The position numbers and the translations under genes were made by a program. Shown here piece by piece: positions 3,753 to 17,317 of a stretch of 64,000 nucleotides of DNA. Below the pieces are notes generated by a model, which did not search any database, was not told where the DNA came from, and saw nothing but the letters and a program-made list of their open reading frames with translations. Source of the DNA: Petropleomorpha daqingensis (GTDB taxonomy: Bacteria > Actinomycetota > Actinomycetes > Mycobacteriales > Geodermatophilaceae); contig NZ_JACBZT010000001.1 in assembly GCF_013408985.1 (NCBI RefSeq), forward strand, positions 4,977,197 through 5,041,196, read 5' to 3'. The number at the start of each line of letters is the position of its first letter. Position 1 is the first letter of the stretch.

Positions 3753-3842
3753 GCGGTGATCAGGTGACCTGATCAATGGCTGTCCTACCGCACCAGCGTT
3801 GGTGCGGTAGGACAGTGTTCGATCAGGTCACCTGATCACCGC
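3753..3842. terminator. Nested 90-nt inverted repeat between convergent genes
   Basis: Outer arms 3753-3774 and 3821-3842 are 22-nt exact reverse complements, and each arm is itself nearly palindromic around TGATCAGGTSACCTGATCA. Inside lies a second perfect 16-bp hairpin, 3780-3795 with 3800-3815 (CTGTCCTACCGCACCA, loop GCGT). Between the two stems are non-pairing 5-nt segments. The element sits between thioredoxin and the convergent ligase gene and includes the last six codons and stop of the ligase. It probably terminates transcription from both sides. No U tract follows, so it would be an actinobacterial-type stem terminator. Confidence 0.75.
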
Positions 3843-5427
3843 CGTGGCCGCCGTACAGGTCGGCGTGGTGCTGGCGGACGACGTTCTTCTGGATCTTGCC
3901 GGTCGAGGTCTTCGGCAGCTCGTCCACGACCACGACCGCCTTCGGCACCTTGTAGCCGTCCAGCCGCCCCTTGAGCGCGGCGATCAGCTCGGCCTCGTCG
4001 ATCCGCTCCCCCGGCTTCGGGACGACGACCGCCGTGATCGCCTCGCTCCACCGCGCGTGCGGCAGCCCGACCACGACCGCCTCGGCGATCCGCGGATCGG
4101 CCGCGTAGACCGCCTTCTCGACCTCGATCGAGGCCACGTTCTCCCCGCCGGTCTTGATCACGTCCTTGTACCGGTCGGCGAACCACAGCACGCCGTCCTC
4201 GCCGAAGCGGCCGACGTCGCCGGAGTGGAACCAGCCGTGCTCGAACGCGGCCGCCGTCGCCTCGGGGTTGCGCAGGTACCCGGTCATCGTCGACGGCCCG
4301 CGGTAGACGATCTCGCCCTGCTCGCCCCACGGCAGCAGCGCGCCGTCCGGACCCATGACCGCCACCTGCACCCCGGTGACCGGCGTGCCGACCGCGCCGA
4401 TGTGGGTGAGCTGGTGCTCCGGCCGGAAGAACGTGGTCACCGGGCTCATCTCGGTCTGCCCGAACAGCAGCGCGAAGTCGCAGTCGAAGCCGGCCAGGCA
4501 GGCGCGGATCAGCGCGTCGGGCATCGGTGCCATGGCGTAGACCGCGCGCCGGAGGCTGGTCACGTCCCGCTCGCCGAACGTCGGGTGCTCCAGCGCGGCG
4601 CGGTACATCATCGGCAGCCCGAAGACCTGGGTGATCCGCTCCCGCTCGATGGTCTCCAGGAAGACGACCGGGTCGAAGCCGCGCAGCACGTGGATGGTCG
4701 CGCCGACCAGCACCGCCGGGGTGCAGAACGCGTTGAGCTGGGCGGTGTGGAACATCGGCATCATCGCCGCGAACCGGTCGCTCGCGCTCCAGCCGTTGTC
4801 CAGCGCCGTCGACATCGACTCCAGGTAGATGGCCAGGTGGCTGCCGACCACGCCCTTCGGGAAGGACGTCGTCCCGGAGGTGTACAGGTAGGACAGCGGG
4901 GCGCGGTCCTCGACGAGCACCTGGGGCTCGGTCTCGTCGTCGGCGGCGAGCTCGTCGAGCGTCGTCCAGGTCCGTTCGGCGGGCTCGGCCGTGTACTCGG
5001 CGCCGAGCCCCGGGAGGACGACGACGTCGCCGATCTCGGCCACCTTGGCGATCGCCTCGGTCATCGCGCCGACCAGCTGCGTCTCGACCGCCAGGCCGCG
5101 GGAGCGGGAGTGCTCGAGCACGTAGGCGACCTCGTCGGGCCGCCAGCCGAGGTTGACCGGCACGCAGACCACGCCGAGCTTGGCGCAGGCGTAGTAGACG
5201 GCGAGGAACTCCGCGCTGTTCCCGGAGGCCAGCCCGAGGGCGTCGCCGGTGGAGTAACCCCGCGCCGCGAGGCCGTGCGCGATCCGGTTCACCCAGGCGT
5301 TGAGCTCGCGGTAGGTCCACCGGCGCTCGCCGTCGACCACCGCGACCTGATCCGGCCGTGCCGCGGCCGTGCGGGTCAGGCTGTCGCCGACGTTGACCCG
5401 CTGGATGAGGTTCTCTGCCAGCTCCAT
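3823..5427 (-). CDS. AMP-forming acyl-CoA synthetase
   Basis: A 534-residue adenylate-forming enzyme of the fatty-acid/carboxylate-CoA ligase family. The ATP-binding P-loop LYTSGTTSFPKG, the motif FGQTEMSP, the hinge region GWFHSGDVGRF and WFADRYKDVIKTGGENV, and the catalytic C-terminal lysine in PKTSTGKIQKN are all present. It activates a carboxylic acid to its CoA thioester with ATP. It is the last gene of the catabolic operon, 11 bases after the TetR gene, with GGGAG before the ATG. In Pseudomonas atu clusters the corresponding gene is atuH, so a branched or terpenoid acid is a reasonable guess for the substrate. Confidence 0.9.
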   Translation of the reverse strand: MELAENLIQRVNVGDSLTRTAAARPDQVAVVDGERRWTYRELNAWVNRIAHGLAARGYSTGDALGLASGNSAEFLAVYYACAKLGVVCVPVNLGWRPDEVAYVLEHSRSRGLAVETQLVGAMTEAIAKVAEIGDVVVLPGLGAEYTAEPAERTWTTLDELAADDETEPQVLVEDRAPLSYLYTSGTTSFPKGVVGSHLAIYLESMSTALDNGWSASDRFAAMMPMFHTAQLNAFCTPAVLVGATIHVLRGFDPVVFLETIERERITQVFGLPMMYRAALEHPTFGERDVTSLRRAVYAMAPMPDALIRACLAGFDCDFALLFGQTEMSPVTTFFRPEHQLTHIGAVGTPVTGVQVAVMGPDGALLPWGEQGEIVYRGPSTMTGYLRNPEATAAAFEHGWFHSGDVGRFGEDGVLWFADRYKDVIKTGGENVASIEVEKAVYAADPRIAEAVVVGLPHARWSEAITAVVVPKPGERIDEAELIAALKGRLDGYKVPKAVVVVDELPKTSTGKIQKNVVRQHHADLYGGHGGDQVT

Positions 5428-5438
5428 CGCTCTCTCCC

Positions 5439-6014
5439 TCAGGTGTAGAGGCATCTCCGGGCGCACTCGGTCAGCAGGTCCGCCAGCGCCTCGCGCGGGA
5501 CGCCGGCGTTCCAGGTCGCCGCCGACTGGATCGCGCCGATCGCCACGTGCACGCGGGCGCGGGCGTCGGCGTCGAGCAGCTCGGGGCGCAGTTCGCGCAG
5601 CGTGTGCACCCACTCCTCGACGTAGTGCCGCTGCAGCCGGCGCAGCCGCCGCTGGTCGCCGTCCGGGAGGGTCTGCACCTCGCGCAACCACAGGCGGACC
5701 AGCAGGGCCTCGTCGACGGCGAAGCGCACCTGGTCGCGGACCAGCTCGTCGAGCACCTCGGCGTCGGGCCGGCCGGAGCCGACCGCCGCCGACGCGCCGG
5801 CCAGCAGCCGCTCCATCCCGTCGTCGAGCAGCGCCAGCAGGACGGCGGACTTCGAGTCGAAGTGCCGGTAGACGCCGGAGCCGACGATCCCGGACGCGGC
5901 ACCGATGTCGGCCATGCTCACCGCGTGGAAGCCGCGCTCGGCGACCAGCTCGGCGGCGGCGCGCAGGATCCGCTCCCGCCGGTCGGGGTCGCGGGTGCGC
6001 ACGCTCTCGGACAT
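5439..6014 (-). CDS. TetR/AcrR-family transcriptional regulator
   Basis: A 191-residue repressor-type protein with an N-terminal TetR helix-turn-helix (about residues 14-60: RERILRAAAELVAERGFHAV, then VGSGVYRHFDSK) and a helical ligand-binding domain. Its ATG overlaps the stop of the AtuA-family gene by one base (TGATG), so it is translated within the catabolic operon and the operon should be autoregulated. The best operator candidates are the two AAGTGA-N8-TCACTT elements at 14.06 and 15.55 kb. The ligand is probably an acyl-CoA intermediate; this is inference from other TetR regulators of acyl-CoA catabolism such as KstR2 and AtuR. Confidence 0.88.
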   Translation of the reverse strand: MSESVRTRDPDRRERILRAAAELVAERGFHAVSMADIGAASGIVGSGVYRHFDSKSAVLLALLDDGMERLLAGASAAVGSGRPDAEVLDELVRDQVRFAVDEALLVRLWLREVQTLPDGDQRRLRRLQRHYVEEWVHTLRELRPELLDADARARVHVAIGAIQSAATWNAGVPREALADLLTECARRCLYT

Positions 6015-7732
6015 CAGACGAGCTCCGCCGGGACGTCGACCAGCCGCGAGCGCAGGTACTCCCCCAGCCCCTTGGCCTGCGGGTCGGGCCGGGTGCTCGA
6101 CGCCACGCCCTCGCCGAGCAGGCCGACGACAACCACGTTGACCGCCCGCAGGTTCGGCAGGGCGAAGACCCGCACCTCCAGGTCGGCCGCCTCGGGGAGC
6201 AGCTCGCGGACCCGGTCGGGTGTGATCTCCGCGGCCAGCCAGGCGTAGCCGGCGTCGTCCCGGGCCCACAGCCCGATGTTGGCGTTGCCGCCCTTGTCCC
6301 CCGACCGCGCCCCCGCCACCGTCCCCAGCGGCACCCGCACCGTCGGTCCGTCCGGGCGGGCCGTCGCCGGCGCCGGCCGCGGCGCCGGCACGGCGCCCGA
6401 CGGCGAGTGCGGGATGGTCGTCGTGGTCCCGTCGGGCAGGTGGACGACGTGCTCGACCTCGTCGGCGGGCACCAGCGCCGGCCAGTAGACGCCGTAGGCC
6501 GTCTCCGACGTCGGCGGTGTCGTGGTGTGGAAGCCCGGGTAGCCGCCGAGGGCCAGCGCCATGGTGGCGTCGGAGAAGCGGCGCCCGACCTTCGCCGGGT
6601 CGGGGTCCTTGACCGTGATCCGCAGGTGCGCGCCCGTGTCGAACGGCAGCAGCCGGATGTCGGAGTCGGCGAACGTGCCCCACCCGCCGAGCAGCTCGTC
6701 GAGCAGATCGCGCGCCCGGGCGGCCTTCGCCTCGAGGTCGAGGCCGGTGAGCACGAGCGTCATCGTGTTGCGGTAGCCGCCCAGGTAGTTCAGCGCGACC
6801 TTCAGCGTGTCCGGCGGCGGCGAGCCGCGTGTGCCCGAAAGCCGCACCCGGTCGGGCGCCTCCTGGGTGAGCTCGACGGTGTCGAAGTGCGCGACGACGT
6901 CGGGGTTGAGGTACGCGGGCTCGGCGATCTCGTAGAGCAGCTGCGCGGTCACCGTGCCCACCGAGACGACGCCGCCGGTGCCCTCGTGCTTGGTGATCAC
7001 GCTGCTGCCGTCGGCGGCGACCTCGGCGATCGGGAACCCCGGGTACCGCAGGTCGGTGATCTCGTCGAGGAAGGCGTAGTTGCCGCCGGTCGCCTGCGGC
7101 CCGCACTCGATGACGTGCCCCGCCGCGACCGCCCCGGCCAGGGCGTCCCAGTCCTCCCGCGCCCAGCCGTGCCACCACGCGGCCGGCCCGACGACCAGCG
7201 AGGCGTCGGTGACCCGCGGGCAGACGACGACGTCGGCGCCGGCGGAGAGGGCCGCCGCGATCCCCCACCCGCCGAGGTAGGCGTTGGCGGAGATCGGCCG
7301 CACGCCCGCCGCGGCCAGGGTGCGTCCGGTGTCGAGGTGCGCGAGGTCGACGCCGGCCGCCTGCAGCTCGGGCAGCCGGTCGAGCAGGTCGTCACCGGTG
7401 ATCGCGGCGACCTTCGGCGCCAGGCCCAGGGTCGCGGCGAGCTTGCCGACCTCGTCGGCCAGGCCCAGCGGGTTGAGGCCGCCGGCATTTGTGACGATCT
7501 TGATGCCGCGGTCGAGGCAGGTGCCGAGCACCTCCTCGAGCTGGGTGAGGAAGGTCCGCGCGTAGCCCGCGGTGTCGTCCTTCCGGCGCGCCTTCCAGAG
7601 GATCAGCATGGTCAGCTCGGCCAGGTAGTCACCGGTGAGGACGTCGATCGGGCCGCCCTCGACCATCTCCTTGGCGGCGGCGAGCCGGTCGCCGTAGAAG
7701 CCGGAGCAGTTCGCGATGCGCACGGGTCTCAC
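6014..7732 (-). CDS. AtuA-family protein (DUF1446, acyclic terpene utilisation)
   Basis: A 572-residue member of the DUF1446/AtuA family, made of the large N-terminal AtuA domain (about residues 4-435) and a shorter C-terminal AtuA-like domain (from about 475, beginning LGTVAGARSGDKGGNANIG). AtuA is required for citronellol/geraniol catabolism in Pseudomonas, but its reaction is unknown. The GTG at 7732 overlaps the preceding stop by four bases (GTGA); an internal GTG three codons later is possible. Its place beside a two-subunit acyl-CoA carboxylase and a hydratase matches both the atu cluster and, from memory, the mycobacterial accA2/accD2 locus that contains Rv0976c. Confidence 0.88.
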   Translation of the reverse strand: MRPVRIANCSGFYGDRLAAAKEMVEGGPIDVLTGDYLAELTMLILWKARRKDDTAGYARTFLTQLEEVLGTCLDRGIKIVTNAGGLNPLGLADEVGKLAATLGLAPKVAAITGDDLLDRLPELQAAGVDLAHLDTGRTLAAAGVRPISANAYLGGWGIAAALSAGADVVVCPRVTDASLVVGPAAWWHGWAREDWDALAGAVAAGHVIECGPQATGGNYAFLDEITDLRYPGFPIAEVAADGSSVITKHEGTGGVVSVGTVTAQLLYEIAEPAYLNPDVVAHFDTVELTQEAPDRVRLSGTRGSPPPDTLKVALNYLGGYRNTMTLVLTGLDLEAKAARARDLLDELLGGWGTFADSDIRLLPFDTGAHLRITVKDPDPAKVGRRFSDATMALALGGYPGFHTTTPPTSETAYGVYWPALVPADEVEHVVHLPDGTTTTIPHSPSGAVPAPRPAPATARPDGPTVRVPLGTVAGARSGDKGGNANIGLWARDDAGYAWLAAEITPDRVRELLPEAADLEVRVFALPNLRAVNVVVVGLLGEGVASSTRPDPQAKGLGEYLRSRLVDVPAELV

Positions 7733-8511
7733 GCCGTCCTCCCCCGTCCCGGCGCGCCGGCGAAGGCCTGCGCGACGTCGAGCCACCGGTCGGCGACCGG
7801 GCCGGTCGCGGTCAGCGCGGTCTGCGACCGGTGCCGGCGCTGGACGACGAGCAGGCAGAAGTCCTCGGCCGGGCCGGTGACGCGGTCGGCGGCGTCCTCG
7901 GGGCCCCAGGTCCACGGTTCGCCGTCCGGGCCGGTCAGCTCCACCCGGACCGGGACGGTGGGCGGCTCCTCCCCGCGGACGACGAAGCTCCAGCCGAACG
8001 TCCGGACGCCGAGATGGGCGACGTGCCGCAGCCGCAGGGTCGGCCGGCGGGTCAGCCCCAGCGCGTCGACGACGTCCTGCCCGTGCGCCCAGGTCTCCAT
8101 CAGCCGCGCGGTCACCGACGACGCCGCGCTCATCGGCGGGCCGTACCAGGGCAGCTGGGTGCCGGGGTCGAGCGCGCCGAAGGTGTCCAGGTAGTCGCGG
8201 CGCTCCCGCTGCAGCCAGGCGAAGGCCTCGGCGCCGGAGAGCCCGCGGTACTTCTCGGCGATCCGGTCGGGGAAGTCGGGCCCCTCGGCGGTGATGGCCT
8301 CGGTGTCGGCCCGGAACCGCTCGGGGTCGGTGGCCGAGAGCACCGCGGTCCCGTCGAAGTAGGCGAGGTGGGTGACCTGGTCGCGCACGGTCCAGCCCGC
8401 CGCGGGGGTGTCGCGGTTCCACTCCGGCTCGGCCAGCACGGAGAGCACCTCGTAGAGGTCGGCGGACTCGGCGGCCAGGTCGGCGGTGAGCACGCCCATG
8501 TCGACGGCCAC
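7729..8511 (-). CDS. TIGR03084-family protein (DinB/maleylpyruvate-isomerase-like)
   Basis: A 260-residue protein of the actinobacterial TIGR03084 family. It has an N-terminal DinB/mycothiol-dependent maleylpyruvate-isomerase-like four-helix domain (residues 5-150), with WTVRDQVTHLAYFD carrying a likely metal-ligand His, and ETWAHGQDVVDALG carrying a second His/Asp group. A C-terminal SCP2-like part follows. The GTG at 8511 is chosen because GGGAGG stands 5 bases before it; an in-frame ATG four codons later is less well placed. It lies 2 bases after the hydratase gene and overlaps the AtuA-family gene. A thiol-dependent isomerase or transferase step in this pathway is plausible but unproven. 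Confidence 0.8.
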   Translation of the reverse strand: MAVDMGVLTADLAAESADLYEVLSVLAEPEWNRDTPAAGWTVRDQVTHLAYFDGTAVLSATDPERFRADTEAITAEGPDFPDRIAEKYRGLSGAEAFAWLQRERRDYLDTFGALDPGTQLPWYGPPMSAASSVTARLMETWAHGQDVVDALGLTRRPTLRLRHVAHLGVRTFGWSFVVRGEEPPTVPVRVELTGPDGEPWTWGPEDAADRVTGPAEDFCLLVVQRRHRSQTALTATGPVADRWLDVAQAFAGAPGRGRTA

Positions 8512-8513
8512 GG

Positions 8514-9275
8514 CTACCTCCCCTGCCAGACGGGCGCGCGCTTGTCGCGGAAGGCGGCCGGGCCCTCCTGCGCGTCGGCGCTGCGGTAGACCGGCGCCCA
8601 CAGCTCCTCGGCCTGCTCGAACGCAGACGCCAGCGGCAGCTCCGCGACCAGCCGGACCGTCTTCTTCGCCGCGCGCACCGACAGCGGCGCGTTGGCCGCG
8701 ATCCGCTCGGCCAGCGCCTGCGCGGTGGCCCGGAGCTCGGCGAGCGGCACGACCTGGTTGACCAGGCCGACCTCGTGCGCGCGGGCGGCGTCGATCGGGT
8801 CGCCGGTGAGCAGCATCTGCATCGCGATCCGCGGCGGCACGAGCAGCGGCAGCGGGGTGGCCCAGGGCATGCCCCGGCCGACCTTGGCCTCGGTGACCGC
8901 GAACCGGGCGTGCTCGGCGGCGACGACGAGGTCGCAGTTCATCACCAGCAGGAAGCCCCCGGCGTAGGCGACGCCGTTGACCGCGGCGATGGTCGGCTTG
9001 TCGACGTCGATGTTGCGGCCGAACTGCGGCAGGAAGTCCACGGGGACGGTGGTCATCGCCGAGTCGGCCATCTCCCGCAGGTCACCGCCGGCGCAGAACG
9101 CGGTGTCGCCGGCACCGGTGAGCACGAGCACCGCGGCGTCGTCGTCGGCGTTGAACCGCCGCACGCCGTCCCAGAGCGCGGCGCGCACCGCCGCCGACAG
9201 CGCGTTGCGCGCCTCCGGCCGGTCGATGGTCAGCCAGGCGACCCCGTTGTCGACCTCGTAGGTCACCTCGCTCAT
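8514..9275 (-). CDS. Enoyl-CoA hydratase/isomerase family protein
   Basis: A 253-residue crotonase-fold enzyme. The oxyanion-hole segments TAFCAGGDL and NGVAYAGGFLL and the downstream EAKVGRGMPWA helix are recognisable. It should add water across an enoyl-CoA double bond; in the analogous atu/liu pathways this step hydrates the carboxylated glutaconyl-CoA intermediate made by the carboxylase. Its ATG overlaps the stop of the biotin-carboxylase gene by four bases (ATGA), so the two are probably translationally coupled. Total length matches bacterial EchA proteins. The exact substrate cannot be read from sequence. Confidence 0.9.
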   Translation of the reverse strand: MSEVTYEVDNGVAWLTIDRPEARNALSAAVRAALWDGVRRFNADDDAAVLVLTGAGDTAFCAGGDLREMADSAMTTVPVDFLPQFGRNIDVDKPTIAAVNGVAYAGGFLLVMNCDLVVAAEHARFAVTEAKVGRGMPWATPLPLLVPPRIAMQMLLTGDPIDAARAHEVGLVNQVVPLAELRATAQALAERIAANAPLSVRAAKKTVRLVAELPLASAFEQAEELWAPVYRSADAQEGPAAFRDKRAPVWQGR

Positions 9276-11251
9276 CCGGTCACCACCGCGAGCACGTGCC
9301 CGGTGTCGACGGCCTGGCCGACGTCGGCGTGCAGGGAGGTGACGACGCCGTCGTGCGGGGCGCGGACGGCGTGCTCCATCTTCATCGCCTCCAGGACGAC
9401 GACCACGGTGCCCGCGCCGACCGGGGCGCCCTCCTCGACCTCGACCCGCACGACCGTGCCGGGCATCGGCGCGTGCAGGGAGCCCGCCTCCTCCTCGGCC
9501 ACCGGCTCGGGGAACCGCTCGGCCTCCACCAGCTCGGTGGCGCCCAGCGCGCTGTCGCAGAACGAGGTGTCGCCGACCCGGTGCACGTCGACGGTGCGCC
9601 GGACGCCGTCGACGGTGAGCGTCACGCGCTCGGCGGTGACCGCGCCGACGGTGACGTCGAGCCGCTCGCCGTCCACGCTGGCGCGCACGCCGTCGCGGCC
9701 GAACCGGTAGGCGACGTCGACCGTCCGGTCGCCCACACCGAAGGAGGCGGAGGCATCGGCGTTGGGGACGTTGCGCCAGCCGGCCGGGATCGTCGCCTGC
9801 ACCCGGGCGTCGGTGCGGCGTGCCGCCGCCCCCGCCAGGGCGGCCGCCAGCGCGTGCACCCGGACGGCGAGCTCCTCCTGCGGGTTGCGGGAGAGCTCCG
9901 CCGGGTCGTGCCGCTCCAGGTAGCCGGTGTCGATCGCGCCGCGGCGGAACTCGTCCTCGCGCAGCAGGCCGACGAGCAGGTCGCGGTTGGTCGTGACGCC
10001 GTGCAGGTGCGCGTCGGCCAGCGCCCGCGCCAGCGTGCGGCAGGCGGCGTCGCGGGTGGGTCCGTACGCGATGACCTTGGCCAGCATCGGGTCGTAGTAG
10101 GTGCTCACCACGGAGCCGTCGATGACGCCGGCGTCGACCCGCACACCGGGCAGCGCCGGGACGGCGAACCGGTGCAGGGTGCCGGTGACCGGGAGGAACC
10201 CGGCCGGCACGTCCTCGGCGTAGAGCCGCACCTCGACCGCGTGCCCGGTGATCGAGGCGCCGGTGACCTCGTCGGGCAGCGGCTCGCCGTCGGCGACCTG
10301 TAGCTGCACCCGCACCAGGTCGAGGCCGGTGACCAGCTCGGTGACCGGGTGCTCGACCTGCAGCCGGGTGTTGACCTCGAGGAAGAAGAACCGGCCCGAC
10401 TGGTCGAGCACGAACTCGACGGTGCCGGCGCCGACGTAGTCGATCGCTTTGGCCGCGGCGACCGCGGCGGCACCGAGCTCGGCGCGCAGCTCCGGCGTCA
10501 CCGCCGGCGACGGCGCCTCCTCGACGATCTTCTGGTAGCGGCGCTGGATCGAGCACTCGCGCTCGAAGAGATGGACGACGGTGCCGTGGGTGTCGCCGAA
10601 GACCTGCACCTCGACGTGCCGCGGCCGCTCGACGAACCGCTCCAGGAACACCGTGCCGTCGCCGAACGCCGAGGCCGCCTCCCGCCGCGCGCCGGCGACC
10701 GCCTCGGCCAGCTCGTCGGGCGCCCGGACGATCCGCATGCCGCGTCCGCCGCCGCCGAACGCGGCCTTGACCAGCAGCGGGTAGCCGATGCCCTCGCCCG
10801 CCCTTCTCAGCGCCGCCTCGTCCAGCTCGCCCCGGGCGCCGATGACCGCGCCGGGCAGCGTGGGCACGCCGGCCGCGGCCATCCGCTCCTTGGCCGCCGT
10901 CTTCGAGCCCATCGCCTCGATCGCCTCGGGCGAGGGGCCGACGAAGACCAGCCCGGCGTCGGCGCAGGCCCGGGCGAACCCGGCGTTCTCCGACAGGAAG
11001 CCGTAGCCGGGGTGGACGGCGTCCGCGCCGGTGGCCCGCGCCGCGGCGACGATCAGCTCGCCGCGCAGGTAGGTCTCCCCCGGTGTCGCGCCGGGCAGCC
11101 GGACCGCCTCGTCGGCTGCGGCCACGAACGGCGCGTCGGCGTCCGGGTCGGAGAAGACCGCGACCGTGGCGATGTCCATCGCCCGGGCGGTGCGGATGAT
11201 GCGGGCGGCGATCTCGCCGCGGTTGGCGACGAGCAGCTTCCGGATGGTCAT
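9272..11251 (-). CDS. Acyl-CoA carboxylase alpha subunit (biotin carboxylase + BCCP)
   Basis: A 659-residue subunit combining an ATP-grasp biotin carboxylase (residues 1-450, starting MTIRKLLVANRGEIAARI, glycine-rich KAAFGGGGRGMRIV, FLEVNTRLQVEHPVTE), a central linker domain, and a biotin carboxyl carrier domain at the end with the biotinylated lysine in EAMKMEH. It carboxylates its own biotin with bicarbonate and ATP. With the carboxyltransferase encoded just upstream it forms a methylcrotonyl-, geranyl-, acetyl- or propionyl-CoA carboxylase. The C-terminal BCCP organisation is that of alpha subunits such as AccA2 or LiuD/AtuF. GAGGAG precedes the ATG. Confidence 0.95.
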   Translation of the reverse strand: MTIRKLLVANRGEIAARIIRTARAMDIATVAVFSDPDADAPFVAAADEAVRLPGATPGETYLRGELIVAAARATGADAVHPGYGFLSENAGFARACADAGLVFVGPSPEAIEAMGSKTAAKERMAAAGVPTLPGAVIGARGELDEAALRRAGEGIGYPLLVKAAFGGGGRGMRIVRAPDELAEAVAGARREAASAFGDGTVFLERFVERPRHVEVQVFGDTHGTVVHLFERECSIQRRYQKIVEEAPSPAVTPELRAELGAAAVAAAKAIDYVGAGTVEFVLDQSGRFFFLEVNTRLQVEHPVTELVTGLDLVRVQLQVADGEPLPDEVTGASITGHAVEVRLYAEDVPAGFLPVTGTLHRFAVPALPGVRVDAGVIDGSVVSTYYDPMLAKVIAYGPTRDAACRTLARALADAHLHGVTTNRDLLVGLLREDEFRRGAIDTGYLERHDPAELSRNPQEELAVRVHALAAALAGAAARRTDARVQATIPAGWRNVPNADASASFGVGDRTVDVAYRFGRDGVRASVDGERLDVTVGAVTAERVTLTVDGVRRTVDVHRVGDTSFCDSALGATELVEAERFPEPVAEEEAGSLHAPMPGTVVRVEVEEGAPVGAGTVVVVLEAMKMEHAVRAPHDGVVTSLHADVGQAVDTGHVLAVVTG

Positions 11252-11258
11252 GAGCTCC

Positions 11259-12881
11259 TCACATCCGGAAGACGCCGAAGCCACGGCGTCCCTCGATCGG
11301 TCCGGAGTGCGCGGCCGACAGCGCGATGCCGAGCGCCGTGCGGGTGTCGCGCGGGTCGAGCAGGCCGTCGTCGTAGAGCCGCGCGGTGACGAAGAAGGAG
11401 TGCGACTCGGCGTCGATCTGCGCCTCGATGGCCCGGCGGCGGGCGTCGTCCGCGTCCTGGTCGAACGGCCGCCCGGACGCCGCCGCGGCCGCCTTGCCGA
11501 CGATCGACATGACCCCCGCCAGCTGGGCGGCGCCCATGACGGCGAGCTTGGCGCCGACCCAGGCGAACATCAGCCGCGGGTCGTAGGCCCGCCCGCTCAT
11601 GCCGTAGTTGCCGGCGCCGAAGCTCGAGGCGGTGTTGATGGTGATGTGCGGGACCGTCGAGTTGGTGACGGCGTTGATCATCTTCGAGCCGTCCTTGATG
11701 ATCCCGCCCTGCTCGTAGTCCTTGCCGACCATGTAGCCGGTGGTGTTCTGCAGGAAGACCAGCGGGGTGTCGACCTGGTTGGCCAGCTGGATGAACTCGG
11801 CGGCCTTCTTGGCCTCCTCGCTGAACAGCACGCCGCGGGCGTTGGCCAGCACACCGACCGGGTAGCCGTGCACCGAGGCCCAGCCGGTGACCAGGCTGGT
11901 GCCGTACTCCGGCTTGTACTCGCCGAACCGGGAGCCGTCGACGACGCGGGCGAGCACCTCGCGCGGGTCGAACGGCACGCGGATGTCGGCCGGGGCGATG
12001 CCGAGCAGCTCGTCGGGGTCGTAGCGGGGCTCGTCGGCCGGCAGCGAGGGGCCGGGCCCGAGCTTGCGCCAGTTCAGCTCGCTGACGATCCGCCGTCCCA
12101 GCCGGATGGCGTCGCGCTCGTCGACGGCGAAGTGGTCGGCCAGCCCGGACACGCGGCTGTGCATGCGGGCGCCGCCGAGCTCCTCGTCGTCGGCGTCCTC
12201 ACCGGTGGCCATCTTGACCAGCGGCGGGCCGCCCAGGAACACCTTGGCCTGCTGGTCGACCAGGACGGCGTAGTCGCACATCCCCGGCACGTACGCGCCC
12301 CCGGCGGTGGAGTTGCCGAACACCAGCGCGATCGTCGGCACGCCCATCGCCGAGAGCTCGGTCAGGTCGTGGAAGATCTTGCCGGCCGGCACGAACAGCT
12401 CCGACTGGGTCGGCAGGTCGGCGCCGCCGGACTCGACCAGGTTGATCACCGGCAGCCGGTTGATCCGGGCGATCTCCAGGGCGCGCAGCGACTTCTTCAG
12501 CGACCAGGGGTTCATCGCGCCGCCGCGCACGGTCGACTCGTGGGCGATGACCACGCACTCGACGCCGCTCACCACCCCGATCCCGGTGACCAGGCTGGCG
12601 CCGACGGTGAACTCGGTGCCCCACGCGGCCAGCGGCGAGAGCTCGAGGAACGCCGAGTCGCGGTCCAGCAGCAGCTCCAGCCGCTCGCGGGCGAGCAGCC
12701 GGCCGCGGTCGCGGTGCCGCTGCTGGTAGCGCTCGCCGCCACCGGCGCGGGCCAGGTCGAGCTGCTCCTCCAGCTGCTCGAGCAGGGCCAGGTTGGCCGC
12801 GCGGTTGGTGCGGTACTGCTCGTCGGCGGTGTCCAGCGTCGAGCGCAGCACCGTGCCCTCGTCGACCCGCGGGTGCGCCAT
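11259..12881 (-). CDS. Acyl-CoA carboxylase beta subunit (carboxyltransferase)
   Basis: A 540-residue carboxyltransferase with the two crotonase-like halves of the family. It transfers the carboxyl group from biotin on the alpha subunit to an acyl-CoA. Segments such as NLVESGGADLPTQ, GNSTAGGAYVPGM, NTTGYMVGKDYEQGG and SSFGAGNYGMSGRAYDPR are those of the methylcrotonyl/geranyl-CoA carboxylase branch rather than of propionyl-CoA carboxylase, so a beta-methyl-branched enoyl-CoA substrate is favoured. The ATG overlaps the stop of the acyl-CoA dehydrogenase gene by one base, and the alpha-subunit gene starts 7 bases after the stop. Confidence 0.93.
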   Translation of the reverse strand: MAHPRVDEGTVLRSTLDTADEQYRTNRAANLALLEQLEEQLDLARAGGGERYQQRHRDRGRLLARERLELLLDRDSAFLELSPLAAWGTEFTVGASLVTGIGVVSGVECVVIAHESTVRGGAMNPWSLKKSLRALEIARINRLPVINLVESGGADLPTQSELFVPAGKIFHDLTELSAMGVPTIALVFGNSTAGGAYVPGMCDYAVLVDQQAKVFLGGPPLVKMATGEDADDEELGGARMHSRVSGLADHFAVDERDAIRLGRRIVSELNWRKLGPGPSLPADEPRYDPDELLGIAPADIRVPFDPREVLARVVDGSRFGEYKPEYGTSLVTGWASVHGYPVGVLANARGVLFSEEAKKAAEFIQLANQVDTPLVFLQNTTGYMVGKDYEQGGIIKDGSKMINAVTNSTVPHITINTASSFGAGNYGMSGRAYDPRLMFAWVGAKLAVMGAAQLAGVMSIVGKAAAAASGRPFDQDADDARRRAIEAQIDAESHSFFVTARLYDDGLLDPRDTRTALGIALSAAHSGPIEGRRGFGVFRM

Positions 12882-14047
12882 CAGTACGACCTCGGCAGGC
12901 CCAGGCTGTGCTGGGCGACGAAGTTGAGGATCATCTCGCGGTTCACCGGGGCGATCCGCAGCAGGCGGGCCAGCCCCCACAGCGGCACGAGGCCGTACTC
13001 GGTGGACAGCCCGTTGCCGCCGTGGGTCTGGATGGCCGCGTCGACGGCGGCCAGCGCGGCCTCGGCGGCGGCGTACTTGGCCATGTTGCTGGCCTCGCCG
13101 GCGGGCAGCCCGAGATCGTGCGCCCAGGCGGCCTTGCGGGTCATCAACCCGGCGAGCTCGGTCTCGATCTTCGCCTTGGCCAGCGGGTGGCTGACCCCCT
13201 GGTGGGCACCGATCGGGGTCTGCCACACCTGCCGGGTGCGGGCGTAGTCGGCGGCGCGGTCCAGCGCGTAGCGGGCGATGCCGACGCAGACCGCCGCCCC
13301 GGTGATCCGCTCGGGGTTCAGGCCGTGGAAGACCTGCGTGAAGCCGTCGCCCTCCTCGCCGACCAACGCGTCCGGGCCGAGCCGCGCCTCGTCGAAGTGC
13401 AGCGTGAACTGCTTCTCCGGCAGCTGGGCGCTCACGGGCAGCGGGTGGGCCTGCAGCCCCGGGGTGTCGGTCGGGACGACGAACAGCGACAACCGCGGCT
13501 TGCCGGTGCCCGGGTCGCGGCCGCGCTGCGCCCCGGTGCGGGCGACCACCAGGACGGCGTCGGCCTCGTCGACCCCGGAGATGTAGTACTTGGTGCCCGA
13601 GAGCAGCCAGTCCTCGCCGTCCCGGACCGCCACGGTGGACAGCTCGTGGGTGTTGGAGCCGGCGTCGGGCTCGGTGATCGCGAAGACCACCTTGCTGCGG
13701 CCGGACGCCAGCCCGGGCAGCCAGCGCGCCTTCTGCTCCTCGGAGCCGTACCGGCCGATCACCTCGGCGGAGATCGCCTGCGAGACCAGGAGCAGCAGCA
13801 GCGGCGCCCCGGCGGCCGCGGTCTCCTCGCAGACCGCGGCGAGCTCGCGCAGCCCGGCCCCGCCGCCGCCGTACTCCTCGGCCACGTTGATCCCGATGAA
13901 GCCGGCCTCGCCGAGCGCCGACCACAGCTCGTCGCAGGGCTCGTGCGCCTCGGCGTGCCGGGCGTAGTAGGCCCCGCCGAAGCGGCCGGTGATGTCCGCG
14001 ACGGTCTTGCGCAGCGCCTGCATCTCGGCGGTCTCGGCGAAGTCCAC
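12881..14047 (-). CDS. Acyl-CoA dehydrogenase
   Basis: A 388-residue FAD-dependent acyl-CoA dehydrogenase, first gene of the catabolic operon. The FAD/substrate segments FAITEPDAGSNTHEL and YYISGVDEAD and the C-terminal QTHGGNGLSTEYGL are clear. At the position where medium-chain enzymes have the catalytic Glu (YEGT) this protein reads IAPVNREM, so the base must come from elsewhere, as in isovaleryl-CoA-type enzymes. It would make the enoyl-CoA that the next-encoded carboxylase uses, like AtuD or LiuA. The GTG start has GGGGG before it, and the operator-like element ends 12 bases upstream. Confidence 0.92.
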   Translation of the reverse strand: MDFAETAEMQALRKTVADITGRFGGAYYARHAEAHEPCDELWSALGEAGFIGINVAEEYGGGGAGLRELAAVCEETAAAGAPLLLLLVSQAISAEVIGRYGSEEQKARWLPGLASGRSKVVFAITEPDAGSNTHELSTVAVRDGEDWLLSGTKYYISGVDEADAVLVVARTGAQRGRDPGTGKPRLSLFVVPTDTPGLQAHPLPVSAQLPEKQFTLHFDEARLGPDALVGEEGDGFTQVFHGLNPERITGAAVCVGIARYALDRAADYARTRQVWQTPIGAHQGVSHPLAKAKIETELAGLMTRKAAWAHDLGLPAGEASNMAKYAAAEAALAAVDAAIQTHGGNGLSTEYGLVPLWGLARLLRIAPVNREMILNFVAQHSLGLPRSY

Positions 14048-14058
14048 GGCGCCCCCAG

Positions 14059-14078
14059 AAGTGATTCGTCATTCACTA
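14059..14078. promoter_or_regulatory. Predicted TetR operator, copy 1 (AAGTGA-N8-TCACTT type)
   Basis: AAGTGATTCGTCATTCACTA is an imperfect palindrome (AAGTGA...TCACT) located 12 bases upstream of the first gene of the catabolic operon and in the divergent gap before the ClC gene. Seventeen bases match copy 2 at 15547 apart from four central positions. The position overlaps or follows the expected operon promoter, as expected for a repressor site. The TetR protein of this operon is the obvious candidate ligand; this is inference. Confidence 0.6.
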
Positions 14079-14199
14079 CCGGACGCAGCCAACACCACTC
14101 GGGGGCGGCTGTCGAGGGCCTCTCCTCATCCGGCGCGGAGGATGCGTCCGCACCGCGCCGGGCACCAGCGTGGCGCGGGCCGGAACGGAGGCCGCGACG

Positions 14200-15552
14200 A
14201 TGACCACGCAGGCTTCGGACAGCTCCGCCCCGGCGGCCGCCGCGGATCCTGCGGCCCTGCTGCGCAGCCGGCAGTACCTGCAGCTGCTGGTCCTCTCCGT
14301 CGTCCTCGGCGTGCCGATCTCCGCCATCGCCTACGGGTTCCTCGCGCTCAGCGACACGCTGCAGGACTGGCTGTACTCCGACCTGCCCGCAGCCCTGGAC
14401 CTGGACCCGGTGCCCGCCTGGTGGCCGCTGCCGGTGCTCGGCGCGGGCGGGTTGCTGGTCGCCGTCCTCATCCGGTATGTGCCGGGTCACGGCGGCGAGT
14501 CGCCGCTCGGGGGGTTCACCCCTGGCGGCGGCGCTCCCGGCCCGGTTCCGCTGCTGGGGATCGCGGTCGCCGCGCTCGTCAGCCTGGCGGCGGGCGCCGT
14601 CGTCGGACCGGAGGCGCCGCTGGTCGCGATCGGCGGCGGGCTCGCCGCGCTCGCCGTCCGGGCGGCCCGCCGCGGCGCGCCGGCGCAGGTGCTCACCGTC
14701 GTCGCCGCGGCCGGCAGCTTCGCCGCGATCAGCGCGCTGCTGGGCTCGCCGCTGTCCGGTGCGTTCCTGCTCATGGAGGCGGTCGGGCTCGGCGGCCCGC
14801 TGCTGCGGACGCTGCTGCTGCCCGGGCTGGTCGCGTCGGGGATCGGCACGCTCGTGTTCATCGGCCTGGACGCCTGGACCGGCCTCGGCACGTTCACCCT
14901 CGCCCTCCCCGATCTGCCGTCCTTCGCCCATCCCGACCTCGCCCAGCTCGCCTGGGCCGTGCCCATCGGCGTCGCGGCCGCGCTCCTCGTGAGCGGGATC
15001 CGCCGGGTCGCGGTGCCGCTGCGGGCACCGGTCGAGCGGCGCATCCTGGTCGCCGGCCCGCTCGTCGGGCTCGCCGTCGCCGGCCTGGCCATCGGCTACG
15101 CGCAGCTCACCGGGCACGGGACGGCGGACGTGCTGTTCTCCGGCGAGGCCGGGCTGCCCGCGGTGGTCAGCCGGAGCGCCGAGTACTCGACCGGCGCGCT
15201 GCTCCTGCTCCTGGTCTGCAAGTCGCTCGCCTACGCGGGCTCGCTGGTCGCCTTCCGCGGCGGTCCGACCTTCCCGGCCATCTTCCTGGGGGCGGTCGGC
15301 GGGATCGCCCTGTCGGCGATCCCCGGCCTGCCCCTGGTCCCGGCCATCGCGATGGGCATGGGTGCGACCTGCGCGGCGATGCTGCAGCTGCCGCTGACCT
15401 CGGTGCTGCTGGCCACCCTGATCATGGGGGCCGACGGGCTGGCCGTGATGCCGGTGGTGATCGTCGCCGTGGCCGTGAGCTACGTCGTGACGGCGCGGCT
15501 CACGCCGCCGGTGCCCGCCGCCGCACCGGCCGCGGCACCAGCCGCCAAGTGA
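14200..15552 (+). CDS. ClC-family chloride channel/antiporter
   Basis: A 450-residue integral membrane protein of the ClC family with about ten to twelve hydrophobic helices. The three selectivity-filter regions can be seen as variants: HGGESPLGG for GSGIP, VGPEAPLVAIGGG for GxEGP with the gating Glu kept, and FRGGPTFPAIFLGA for GGxFxP. It should move chloride or another anion across the membrane, possibly in exchange for protons. The ATG at 14200 is preceded by ACGGAGG at good spacing. It lies divergent from the catabolic operon and its stop codon is part of the second operator-like element. Its link to that pathway is unknown. Confidence 0.88.
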   Translation: MTTQASDSSAPAAAADPAALLRSRQYLQLLVLSVVLGVPISAIAYGFLALSDTLQDWLYSDLPAALDLDPVPAWWPLPVLGAGGLLVAVLIRYVPGHGGESPLGGFTPGGGAPGPVPLLGIAVAALVSLAAGAVVGPEAPLVAIGGGLAALAVRAARRGAPAQVLTVVAAAGSFAAISALLGSPLSGAFLLMEAVGLGGPLLRTLLLPGLVASGIGTLVFIGLDAWTGLGTFTLALPDLPSFAHPDLAQLAWAVPIGVAAALLVSGIRRVAVPLRAPVERRILVAGPLVGLAVAGLAIGYAQLTGHGTADVLFSGEAGLPAVVSRSAEYSTGALLLLLVCKSLAYAGSLVAFRGGPTFPAIFLGAVGGIALSAIPGLPLVPAIAMGMGATCAAMLQLPLTSVLLATLIMGADGLAVMPVVIVAVAVSYVVTARLTPPVPAAAPAAAPAAK

Positions 15553-15566
15553 TCGGCCATTCACTT
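15547..15566. promoter_or_regulatory. Predicted TetR operator, copy 2
   Basis: AAGTGATCGGCCATTCACTT is a near-palindrome with perfect outer half sites AAGTGA and TCACTT and a GGCC centre. It begins in the last codon of the ClC gene and lies 75 bases before the second acyl-CoA ligase gene. A weak promoter, TTCACT (15560-15565), 17 bases, CAGACT (15583-15588), overlaps its right half. I saw the AAGTGA-N8-TCACT arrangement only here and at 14059, so the two sites probably bind the same regulator. Confidence 0.6.
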
Positions 15567-15640
15567 CGGGGCTCCGGTGGTCCAGACTCTGTGGCGCCCG
15601 TCACGCCTCAGGCCCGCACCACCGAACCCGGGGAGCCCCA

Positions 15641-17317
15641 ATGGTCATCGACGTCGAGAAGCTCTACGACCGCCGCGCGGACAACCGGTGGGACCGGACC
15701 TGCGTCGGCGACGTCCTGGAGCGGGTGACCTGGAGTCGGCCGGACCGGGTGGCCATCACCGGCTGGGCGGGCGCCTTCGCCACCCCCGAGTTCGAGCGGC
15801 TGACCTACCGCGAGGCGAACGAGGTCGTGAACCGGGTGGCGCAGGGTCTGCTCGCCCGCGGCCTGACCCGCGGCGACCGGGTGCTCCTGCTCTGCGAGAA
15901 CTCGGTCGAGGCGTACCTGACCAAGCTCGGCGTGGCCAAGGCCGGCATGGTCAACGTCCCGCTCAACCCCTCGCTCGCCCCCGACGTGATCGCGCAGCTC
16001 CTCGCGCTGGCCGAGCCGCGCTTCGCCGTCGTCGACGCCGAGCTGTGGCCGGCCGTGCAGCCGGCGTTCGACGCCGCCGGCCTCTCCCCCGACGTGACCA
16101 TCGGCATCGGCGGCGGGCCGGTCGCCGGCACCGTCGCCTTCCCCGAGTTCCTCGCCGGCGCCTCGCCCGAGGAGCCGGACACCGTCGTCCACGGCGACGA
16201 CATCTGGGAGCTGCTGTTCACCTCGGGGACGACGGCGCTGCCGAAGGGCGTGATGCTCTCGCACACCTACGCGCACATGGGCGCGTACGCGTTCGCGCTG
16301 TCGCTGACCCGCGGCGTGCCGGTCGAGGCCGACCTGGTGCTCTGCTCGTTCCTGCCGGTGATCTACCACGTGGCCGACCAGGCGCTGTCGCTGCCGGCGT
16401 TCCTGGCCGGCGGCCGGCTGCTGATCGGCCGCCGGCCGGTGCCGGGCGAGATGGCCGCGGCGGTGCGCCGCGAGCAGGTCACCGCGCTGTGGGGCGGCTC
16501 CCCGCAGCTGGTCAAGGCGTTCGCCGCGGCGCTGGACGCCGGCGAGCCGGACTGCGCGCTGAAGGTGCTGGTCTACGGCTGGGGCGCGGTCGAGCCCGGT
16601 GTGCTGGCCACGCTCAAGGAGCAGTGCGGCGAGGACTTCCTGCTCGTGGGCATCTTCGGGCAGACCGAGGCGATCAGCTGCCACCGCTTCTGGCCCGACC
16701 GGGAGCGGGAGAAGTACGTCAAGGCCGGGTCCAGCGTCAACTACGTCGGCATCCCGAACCCGCTGCTGGCCTCGACGATCATGGACTTCGACGGCTCGTC
16801 GCTGCTGGACAAGCCCGGCACTCCCGGCGAGGCCGTGTACCGCTCCCCCGCCGTCGCCTCGGGCTACTACCGCGACCTACCGGCCACCGAGGAGGCCTTC
16901 CGCCACGGCTGGTTCCACTCCGGCGACAGCTGCGTGGTCGACGACGAGGGCCTGCGGATCATGGTCGACCGCTACAAGGACATCATCAAGAGCGGTGGCG
17001 AGAACGTCTCGAGCATCCGGGTCGAGGCGATGCTGCACGAGCACCCGCAGGTGGCGAAGGCCGCCGTCATCGGGCTGGCCCATGACCGCTGGGGCGAGGC
17101 GGTGACGGCGGTCGTCGTCCGGACGCCGGACGCGACGGTCACCGAGGACGAGCTGGTCGACTGGGCGCGCGCCCGGTTGGCCGGCTTCGAGACGCCGAAG
17201 GCCGTCGTCTTCGCCGACGCGCTGCCCGAGACCGTGGGCGGCAAGGTGCTCAAGTACAAGCTGCGCCAGGCGATGGCCGACCTCTACGCCGCCGCGGCGT
17301 CGTCCTCGGCCGACTGA
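15641..17317 (+). CDS. AMP-forming acyl-CoA synthetase
   Basis: A 558-residue adenylate-forming acyl-CoA ligase. The P-loop FTSGTTALPKGV, the FGQTEAIS motif, GWFHSGDSCVV, VDRYKDIIKSGGENVSS and the catalytic Lys region near ETVGGKVLKYK are present. It would activate a carboxylic acid to the CoA ester. GGGGAG stands before the ATG. It is transcribed away from the catabolic operon but shares its operator-like element, suggesting that this second ligase supplies the same pathway or an alternative entry substrate. It is not a close copy of the ligase at 3.8-5.4 kb. Only 3 bases separate its stop from that of the convergent DUF1707 gene. Confidence 0.9.
   Translation: MVIDVEKLYDRRADNRWDRTCVGDVLERVTWSRPDRVAITGWAGAFATPEFERLTYREANEVVNRVAQGLLARGLTRGDRVLLLCENSVEAYLTKLGVAKAGMVNVPLNPSLAPDVIAQLLALAEPRFAVVDAELWPAVQPAFDAAGLSPDVTIGIGGGPVAGTVAFPEFLAGASPEEPDTVVHGDDIWELLFTSGTTALPKGVMLSHTYAHMGAYAFALSLTRGVPVEADLVLCSFLPVIYHVADQALSLPAFLAGGRLLIGRRPVPGEMAAAVRREQVTALWGGSPQLVKAFAAALDAGEPDCALKVLVYGWGAVEPGVLATLKEQCGEDFLLVGIFGQTEAISCHRFWPDREREKYVKAGSSVNYVGIPNPLLASTIMDFDGSSLLDKPGTPGEAVYRSPAVASGYYRDLPATEEAFRHGWFHSGDSCVVDDEGLRIMVDRYKDIIKSGGENVSSIRVEAMLHEHPQVAKAAVIGLAHDRWGEAVTAVVVRTPDATVTEDELVDWARARLAGFETPKAVVFADALPETVGGKVLKYKLRQAMADLYAAAASSSAD

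Follow-up and report, generated by a model that had tools for sequence, protein, structure and literature searches.

The window analysed here, a 64,000-nucleotide stretch of the genome of Petropleomorpha daqingensis (Geodermatophilaceae), contains an acyl-CoA locus in which eight genes run on the minus strand. The first encodes an acyl-CoA dehydrogenase (12881-14047) and is followed by genes for AccD, an acyl-CoA carboxylase carboxyltransferase subunit without the methylcrotonyl Phe191 fingerprint (11259-12881), AccA, a biotin carboxylase subunit with a BT domain of the methylcrotonyl-CoA carboxylase (MCC) type (9272-11251), an enoyl-CoA hydratase (8514-9275), a TIGR03084 family protein (7729-8499, its start codon being our choice), an AtuA-family protein (acyclic terpene utilisation; 6014-7723; PF07287, 550 bits), a TetR-family regulator and proposed repressor (5439-6014), and, as the last gene, acyl-CoA ligase 1 (3823-5427). 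Adjacent genes in this run overlap or are separated by at most 15 bp, judged by their coordinates, and a single transcript is therefore likely. The TetR gene lies within the run, as the sequence-only reading had said of the operon behind the first of two palindromes. On the plus strand are a ClC-type chloride channel gene (14200-15552) and a detached gene for acyl-CoA ligase 2 (15641-17317), a candidate member of the same regulon.

Two near-palindromic 20-mers, predicted operators with no strand assigned, are present where they had been reported, at 14059 and 15547. Operator 1 (AAGTGATTCGTCATTCACTA, 14059-14078) lies before the dehydrogenase gene, with which the eight-gene operon begins, and ends 11 bp from its start (14047 on the minus strand); operator 2 (AAGTGATCGGCCATTCACTT, 15547-15566) overlaps the stop codon of the ClC gene (TGA, 15550-15552) and lies 74 bp upstream of the ligase 2 ATG (15641), so that the ClC gene falls between the two. 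The operators have 16 of 20 bases in common and match their own reverse complements at 12 of 20 positions (operator 1) and 16 of 20 (operator 2). Across the GTGAT...CATTCACT part our count is 14 shared bases of 17, which corrects the earlier figure of 13, and the form AAGTGA-N8-TCACTT proposed for both copies is exact at the second and one base off at the first. When the window was scanned with this loose form at up to three mismatches, 3 matches were obtained against a shuffle mean of 3.33, which is not above chance, and for this reason stricter and comparative tests were used. The shared pattern AAGTGATNNNNCATTCACT occurs with 0-1 mismatch at exactly two places in the 5,376,835-base genome, both of them the window operators; the next-best places in this 5.38-Mb genome carry 3 mismatches, and base composition alone would give about 1e-4 exact matches. 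The pattern AGTGR-N7-TTCACT is likewise found exactly in its own genome at the two window operators only. Matrix scoring of the genome beyond the window covered nine further places of the AGTGR-N7-TTCACT search. The third strong site of this genome, a near-perfect palindrome, CAGTGATCCATCGATCACTG (L125:1500-1519, that is G000:C1:1313550-1313569; 25.4 bits), was set aside as having no tie to the pathway; it adjoins an ArsR-like gene and an ArsI/VOC-type gene, as read from their translations, and is perhaps the site of another regulator.

The carboxylase offers some indication of what the pathway may act upon. Geranyl-CoA carboxylase has Gly at the place of MCC beta Phe191, and MCC beta has a three-residue insertion by comparison (PMC4673880). 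Alignment of the window AccD with the structure 3u9r places Ala at the Phe191 position and shows three residues fewer, so that it has the small residue and lacks the insertion, as in the geranyl-CoA carboxylase type; all AccD segments at least 73% identical to it also carry Ala there. Over its whole length, the window AccD scores 524 bits against MCC beta and 456 bits against geranyl-CoA carboxylase beta. Gly at this place, as in geranyl-CoA carboxylase, was seen in the AccD proteins encoded by Rhodococcus, Nocardia, Saccharopolyspora and related clusters (L056, L057, L059-L063, L065, L066, L068-L072). Together with AtuA and the dehydrogenase, the pocket residue of the window AccD suggests that the substrate is a larger methyl-branched or terpenoid acyl-CoA. 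The predicted dehydrogenase, carboxylase with opened pocket, hydratase and AtuA would fit the scheme of dehydrogenation, carboxylation and hydration that is common to citronellate and leucine breakdown.

To follow the locus through the family, the TetR protein was searched in 112 Geodermatophilaceae genomes. Besides its own, nine matches at 61-79% identity were recovered from eight genomes, after which came only paralogues at no more than 49% identity and a 76-residue TetR fragment in one genome (G093). Relatives that have the operon include Blastococcus, Klenkia and Modestobacter. Six loci fetched twice were counted once (L040, L041, L042, L044, L045 and L046 are the same as L053, L050, L049, L051, L052 and L054, respectively), and L038 and L039, which end before the operon's promoter, were left out. 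The TetR gene is within the same locus in seven of the nine copies; the contigs of the other two (L047, L048) end after AccD and before TetR, and in G036 and G037 the TetR gene is on one contig and the same two sites are on another. Operator 1 is present in all nine copies, its 16-bp core stopping 13-15 bp short of the dehydrogenase start codon (13 bp in the window). In all eight relatives that have ligase 2 its gene is directly divergent from the operon, with no ClC gene between, and operator 2 precedes it in each (8/8). The divergent gap in these relatives measures ~180-215 bp and holds both sites; an alignment of the gap from seven loci has a mean column identity of 64%, with invariant blocks that include the half-sites of operators 1 and 2. 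The ninth copy (L054, the second in the Klenkia genome G081) showed no ligase 2 in the stretch fetched and no detectable operator 2. This Klenkia genome has two operon copies (L040, L046).

The degenerate motif WGTGRYY-N4-RTTCACT occurs twice in eight of the nine regulator-bearing family genomes, including that of the window, and once in the ninth (G081). Among the other 103 genomes it occurs twice in none and once in eight, and read backwards it gives 3 matches in all 112; having been drawn from the regulator genomes' own sites, the motif is informative only in its rarity elsewhere. One of the single matches, in G093 (L144:4606-6272, G093:C4), is an intact operator-2 sequence that abuts a C-terminal piece of a TetR gene and is followed by a ligase 2 gene, broken and rearranged; the rest of the operon is absent from the 10 kb fetched around it. 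The G093 site is a relic of the operon/ligase-2 locus.

A matrix built from the sites of 11 distinct relatives, with the window sites held out, ranked operator 1 first (29.2 bits) and operator 2 second (28.8 bits) in the window; the third match scored 9.7 bits, and 60 shuffled windows reached 16.4 bits at most. A profile search at the level of the order (397 genomes) gave 11 genomes outside the family with a TetR match of at least 202 bits, and these, with L055 and with L073 (a 4-kb contig without a TetR gene), make up 13 outside loci. The sequence-only reading had looked to orthologous TetR-containing operons for the element, and it is there: before all nine family copies as operator 1, and in the outside loci as the top matrix match, which for 12 of the 13 falls in the 300-bp stretch ahead of a pathway gene (such stretches make up ~10% of the sequence). 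The genes concerned are those for the dehydrogenase (4), AccD (3), the hydratase (2) and AtuA (1), and in L055 and L073 the match lies between AccD and the dehydrogenase; in G238 the top match is not upstream of a pathway gene. The corresponding binomial probability of 1e-11 ignores relatedness, G214 and G340 being near copies of one another, and three of the 13 top scores, among them those of G214 and G340, are 16.7-17.1 bits, values that shuffled sequence also reaches (95% at 17.1). The correspondence is looser in G359 (TetR 44%, AccD 47%). Upstream of ligase 2, a match of at least 16.7 bits was present in four of the five outside loci that show this gene (G386, G329, G335 and G149, not G275), the G149 match, at 16.7 bits, being common to AccD. 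More distant TetR relatives at 42-43% identity (L116, L117), which stand outside the 13-locus count, showed no such site, and the best match was at most 14.8 bits in 18 loci of another arrangement (Rhodococcus, Nocardia, Saccharopolyspora and others, some partial) in which no such TetR was seen. Two of the order-level genomes each contain a pair of TetR genes of the window regulator's clade near ligase 2, with several copies of the motif (L105:6655-7185 and 12643-13188; L107:7446-7967 and 11732-12277), which points to a further duplication of the regulator. A different palindrome, AATCAAGCATGCTTGATT, lies upstream of the dehydrogenase in L067 and L074 and is possibly the site of another regulator.

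The regulator contains the TetR_N domain PF00440 (55.4 bits against a cut-off of 24), and its structure model has nine helices with a pLDDT of 89.8. The nearest solved structures to this model are those of BkaR/Fad35R (TM 0.83-0.85, 39-40% identity). Against the SACE_7040 family (NCBIfam NF050111) it scored 169.4 bits, below the curated cut-off of 250, and its sequence relative Mce3R was rejected as a model, since the Mce3R site is asymmetric and non-palindromic (PMC11667970). The proven core of the BkaR site is GTTA(N)T(N4)A(N)TAAC (PMC3920632); the window sites keep the spacing of this core but have GTGA at both half-sites and do not reproduce it. The P. daqingensis genome has a BkaR-type paralogue of its own (G000:C1:3243749-3244348, locus L143), which is divergent from an AccD gene encoding PDREHFGRIF, a stretch described as an MCC fingerprint (PMC4347857). 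A tree separates the window-type and BkaR-type groups (10 BkaR-type rows, 100/98), with some deeper forks weak, long branches flagged and no mycobacterial BkaR row among those included. Unlike a BkaR orthologue, the window regulator lies outside the BkaR-type clade and has no MCC-type carboxylase as neighbour; it belongs to a sister group of BkaR.

In 20 of 22 paralogue loci (21 from the family and L143), a near-match site with at least one GTTA half-site lies no more than 300 bp upstream of the TetR gene, and many of these upstream sites carry one GTGA half-site; in the other two (L021, L024) the best matrix match, elsewhere in the locus, has GTTA at both ends. Because BkaR-type sites so often include one GTGA half-site, cross-binding between the BkaR-type regulator and the window sites is possible. 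The recognition helix reads GIVGSGVYRHF in the window regulator and all nine family orthologues, and GVTGPAIYRHF in 19 of the 21 BkaR-type paralogues and in L143. Outside the family the helix varies, and L113 and L114 have the GPA helix together with GTGA-type sites, so that the match between helix and site is not strict.

We consider it highly probable that both palindromes serve as operators for the TetR protein encoded at 5439-6014, which would jointly control the acyl-CoA operon and ligase 2, now split by insertion of the ClC gene. The operator, regulator and target set predicted by the sequence-only reading is supported by the comparison of genomes, the shared pattern standing at two places only in this genome and the sites being conserved with the regulator. 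From the sites, this conservation, the arrangement in relatives and the kinship with BkaR, we infer binding, repression, ligand and substrate as follows. In the absence of inducer, a dimer of the regulator would occupy each operator; on operator 1 it would turn off the eight-gene operon, including the regulator's own gene (autoregulation), and on operator 2 it would turn off ligase 2. The inducer would be an acyl-CoA of the pathway, probably the product of ligase 1 or ligase 2 acting on a methyl-branched or terpenoid acid; its binding would free both operators from the regulator. The ancestral state would have been that of two divergent units facing each other across ~180-215 bp, into which the ClC gene later entered.

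Ligase 2 had been claimed as a member of the regulon despite the intervening gene, and the relatives bear out this membership, since ligase 2 in them adjoins the operon in divergent orientation and has a site of its own; the claim is weaker for its present control. The gaps of all seven relatives compared have a TTGAC whose first base is 17-18 nt ahead of the first base of operator 2. The window lacks this element, ClC coding sequence having taken its place; TTGAC is also absent from both strands between operator 1 and the ClC gene (14079-14199), and a search of 13900-15800 gave no sigma-70-like promoter. The ligase-2 promoter has thus changed in this genome, and its present control is less certain; transcription may now come from elsewhere. 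ClC orthologues (E 1e-60) were found in six of the 112 family genomes, this one included, and the five others have longer, different tails, the window ClC reading frame stopping at the TGA of operator 2. As the ClC gene is missing at this place from all eight relatives that have ligase 2, its insertion between the operators in this lineage is the simplest reading. Its start is 121 bp from operator 1, and the ClC gene may itself be under the control of the repressor. These features also allow that operator 1 alone works and that operator 2 is a relic, the insertion having destroyed the ligase-2 promoter and left the ligase dependent on ClC read-through or on a promoter that is not regulated. 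The lost TTGAC and the lack of a promoter-like site would suit such an outcome, but a relic should have decayed, and operator 2 of the window comes nearer to a perfect palindrome than operator 1, with a held-out score almost as high; a repressor bound there could, moreover, also block read-through. We regard a relic as unlikely, with some weight left to it.

The sites could also belong to another regulator, for example the BkaR-type paralogue, the TetR protein of the operon acting in some other way. The paralogue sites do have the same spacing and often one GTGA half-site, but the distribution of the motif follows the window-type regulator rather than the paralogues: TetR matches at E 1e-20 are found in 99 of the 112 genomes, 90 of which have only a paralogue or fragment, and the paired motif is confined to the genomes with the window-type regulator (8/9, against 0/103). 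The two TetR groups separate in the tree, and the highest-scoring site within the 12-kb locus of the paralogue has 13.5 bits. This makes control by another regulator improbable. That the palindromes are a chance occurrence or a repeat element would agree with the behaviour of the loose form in the window, but their rarity in the whole genome, their conservation at orthologous positions and their ranks under the held-out matrix leave it a negligible probability. Beyond joint control of the operon and ligase 2 by the in-operon TetR protein, we offer a wider account tentatively, as a speculation that may well prove wrong. Within one genome, the BkaR-type regulator with its methylcrotonyl-CoA carboxylase and the window regulator with its geranyl-CoA-carboxylase-like enzyme would share common descent, their DNA code having split by one base per half-site, with the mixed GTTA/GTGA sites of the BkaR-type branch as intermediates; the ClC gene would have entered the shared promoter, taken its stop codon from operator 2 and come under the repressor.

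Among known systems, the closest is BkaR/Fad35R of mycobacteria (Rv2506, MSMEG_4718), which is alike in its TetR dimer, its two palindromes and the spacing of the 16-bp core. It controls a biotin-dependent acyl-CoA carboxylase operon, which in M. tuberculosis is adjoined by fadD35 (PMC3920632). The two systems differ in their half-sites (GTTA/GTTA in BkaR, GTGA/GTGA here) and clades, in the placing of the regulator, which is divergent in BkaR and inside the operon here, and in the carboxylase, which lacks the MCC fingerprint in the window; the window genome, furthermore, encodes a separate BkaR-type regulator at another locus. AtuR, of the acyclic terpene utilisation cluster of Pseudomonas, is also a TetR repressor with two inverted repeats. 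That cluster has dehydrogenase, geranyl-CoA carboxylase and hydratase genes. The repeats stand before atuA (PMC9973270, PMC3511530) and read AGCAAGCGCTTGG and CCAAGCGCTTGCT (PMC9973270). They are unrelated to the window motif, and the window TetR belongs to the BkaR branch.

Loci of Rhodococcus and Nocardia in which the genes are arranged AtuA-ACAD-AccD-AccA-ACAD-ECH contain homologues of the window operon. We take these to correspond to the M. tuberculosis operon Rv0971c-Rv0976c, of which Rv0976c is presumably the AtuA protein. This operon unites echA7, fadE12, accA2, accD2 and fadE13 (PMC9283954), and the text of PMC4347857 that concerns AccA2-AccD2 leaves their role open. In contrast to the window, 18 loci of the AccA2-AccD2 type showed neither an orthologous TetR gene nor the motif. 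Literature searches of titles and abstract openings found no published account of the window regulon, and its standing as a new regulon of the known BkaR/TetR type is well supported.

With this regulon, a carboxylase pathway gains an operator, a regulator and a set of target genes. Its mycobacterial relatives, AccA2-AccD2, have no substrate assigned to them in the papers cited, and the inducer of the regulator should point to the substrate of the pathway. The locus also provides a clean example of operator divergence between related regulators, and an example of a divergent promoter that was split by the insertion of a gene, with both operators surviving.
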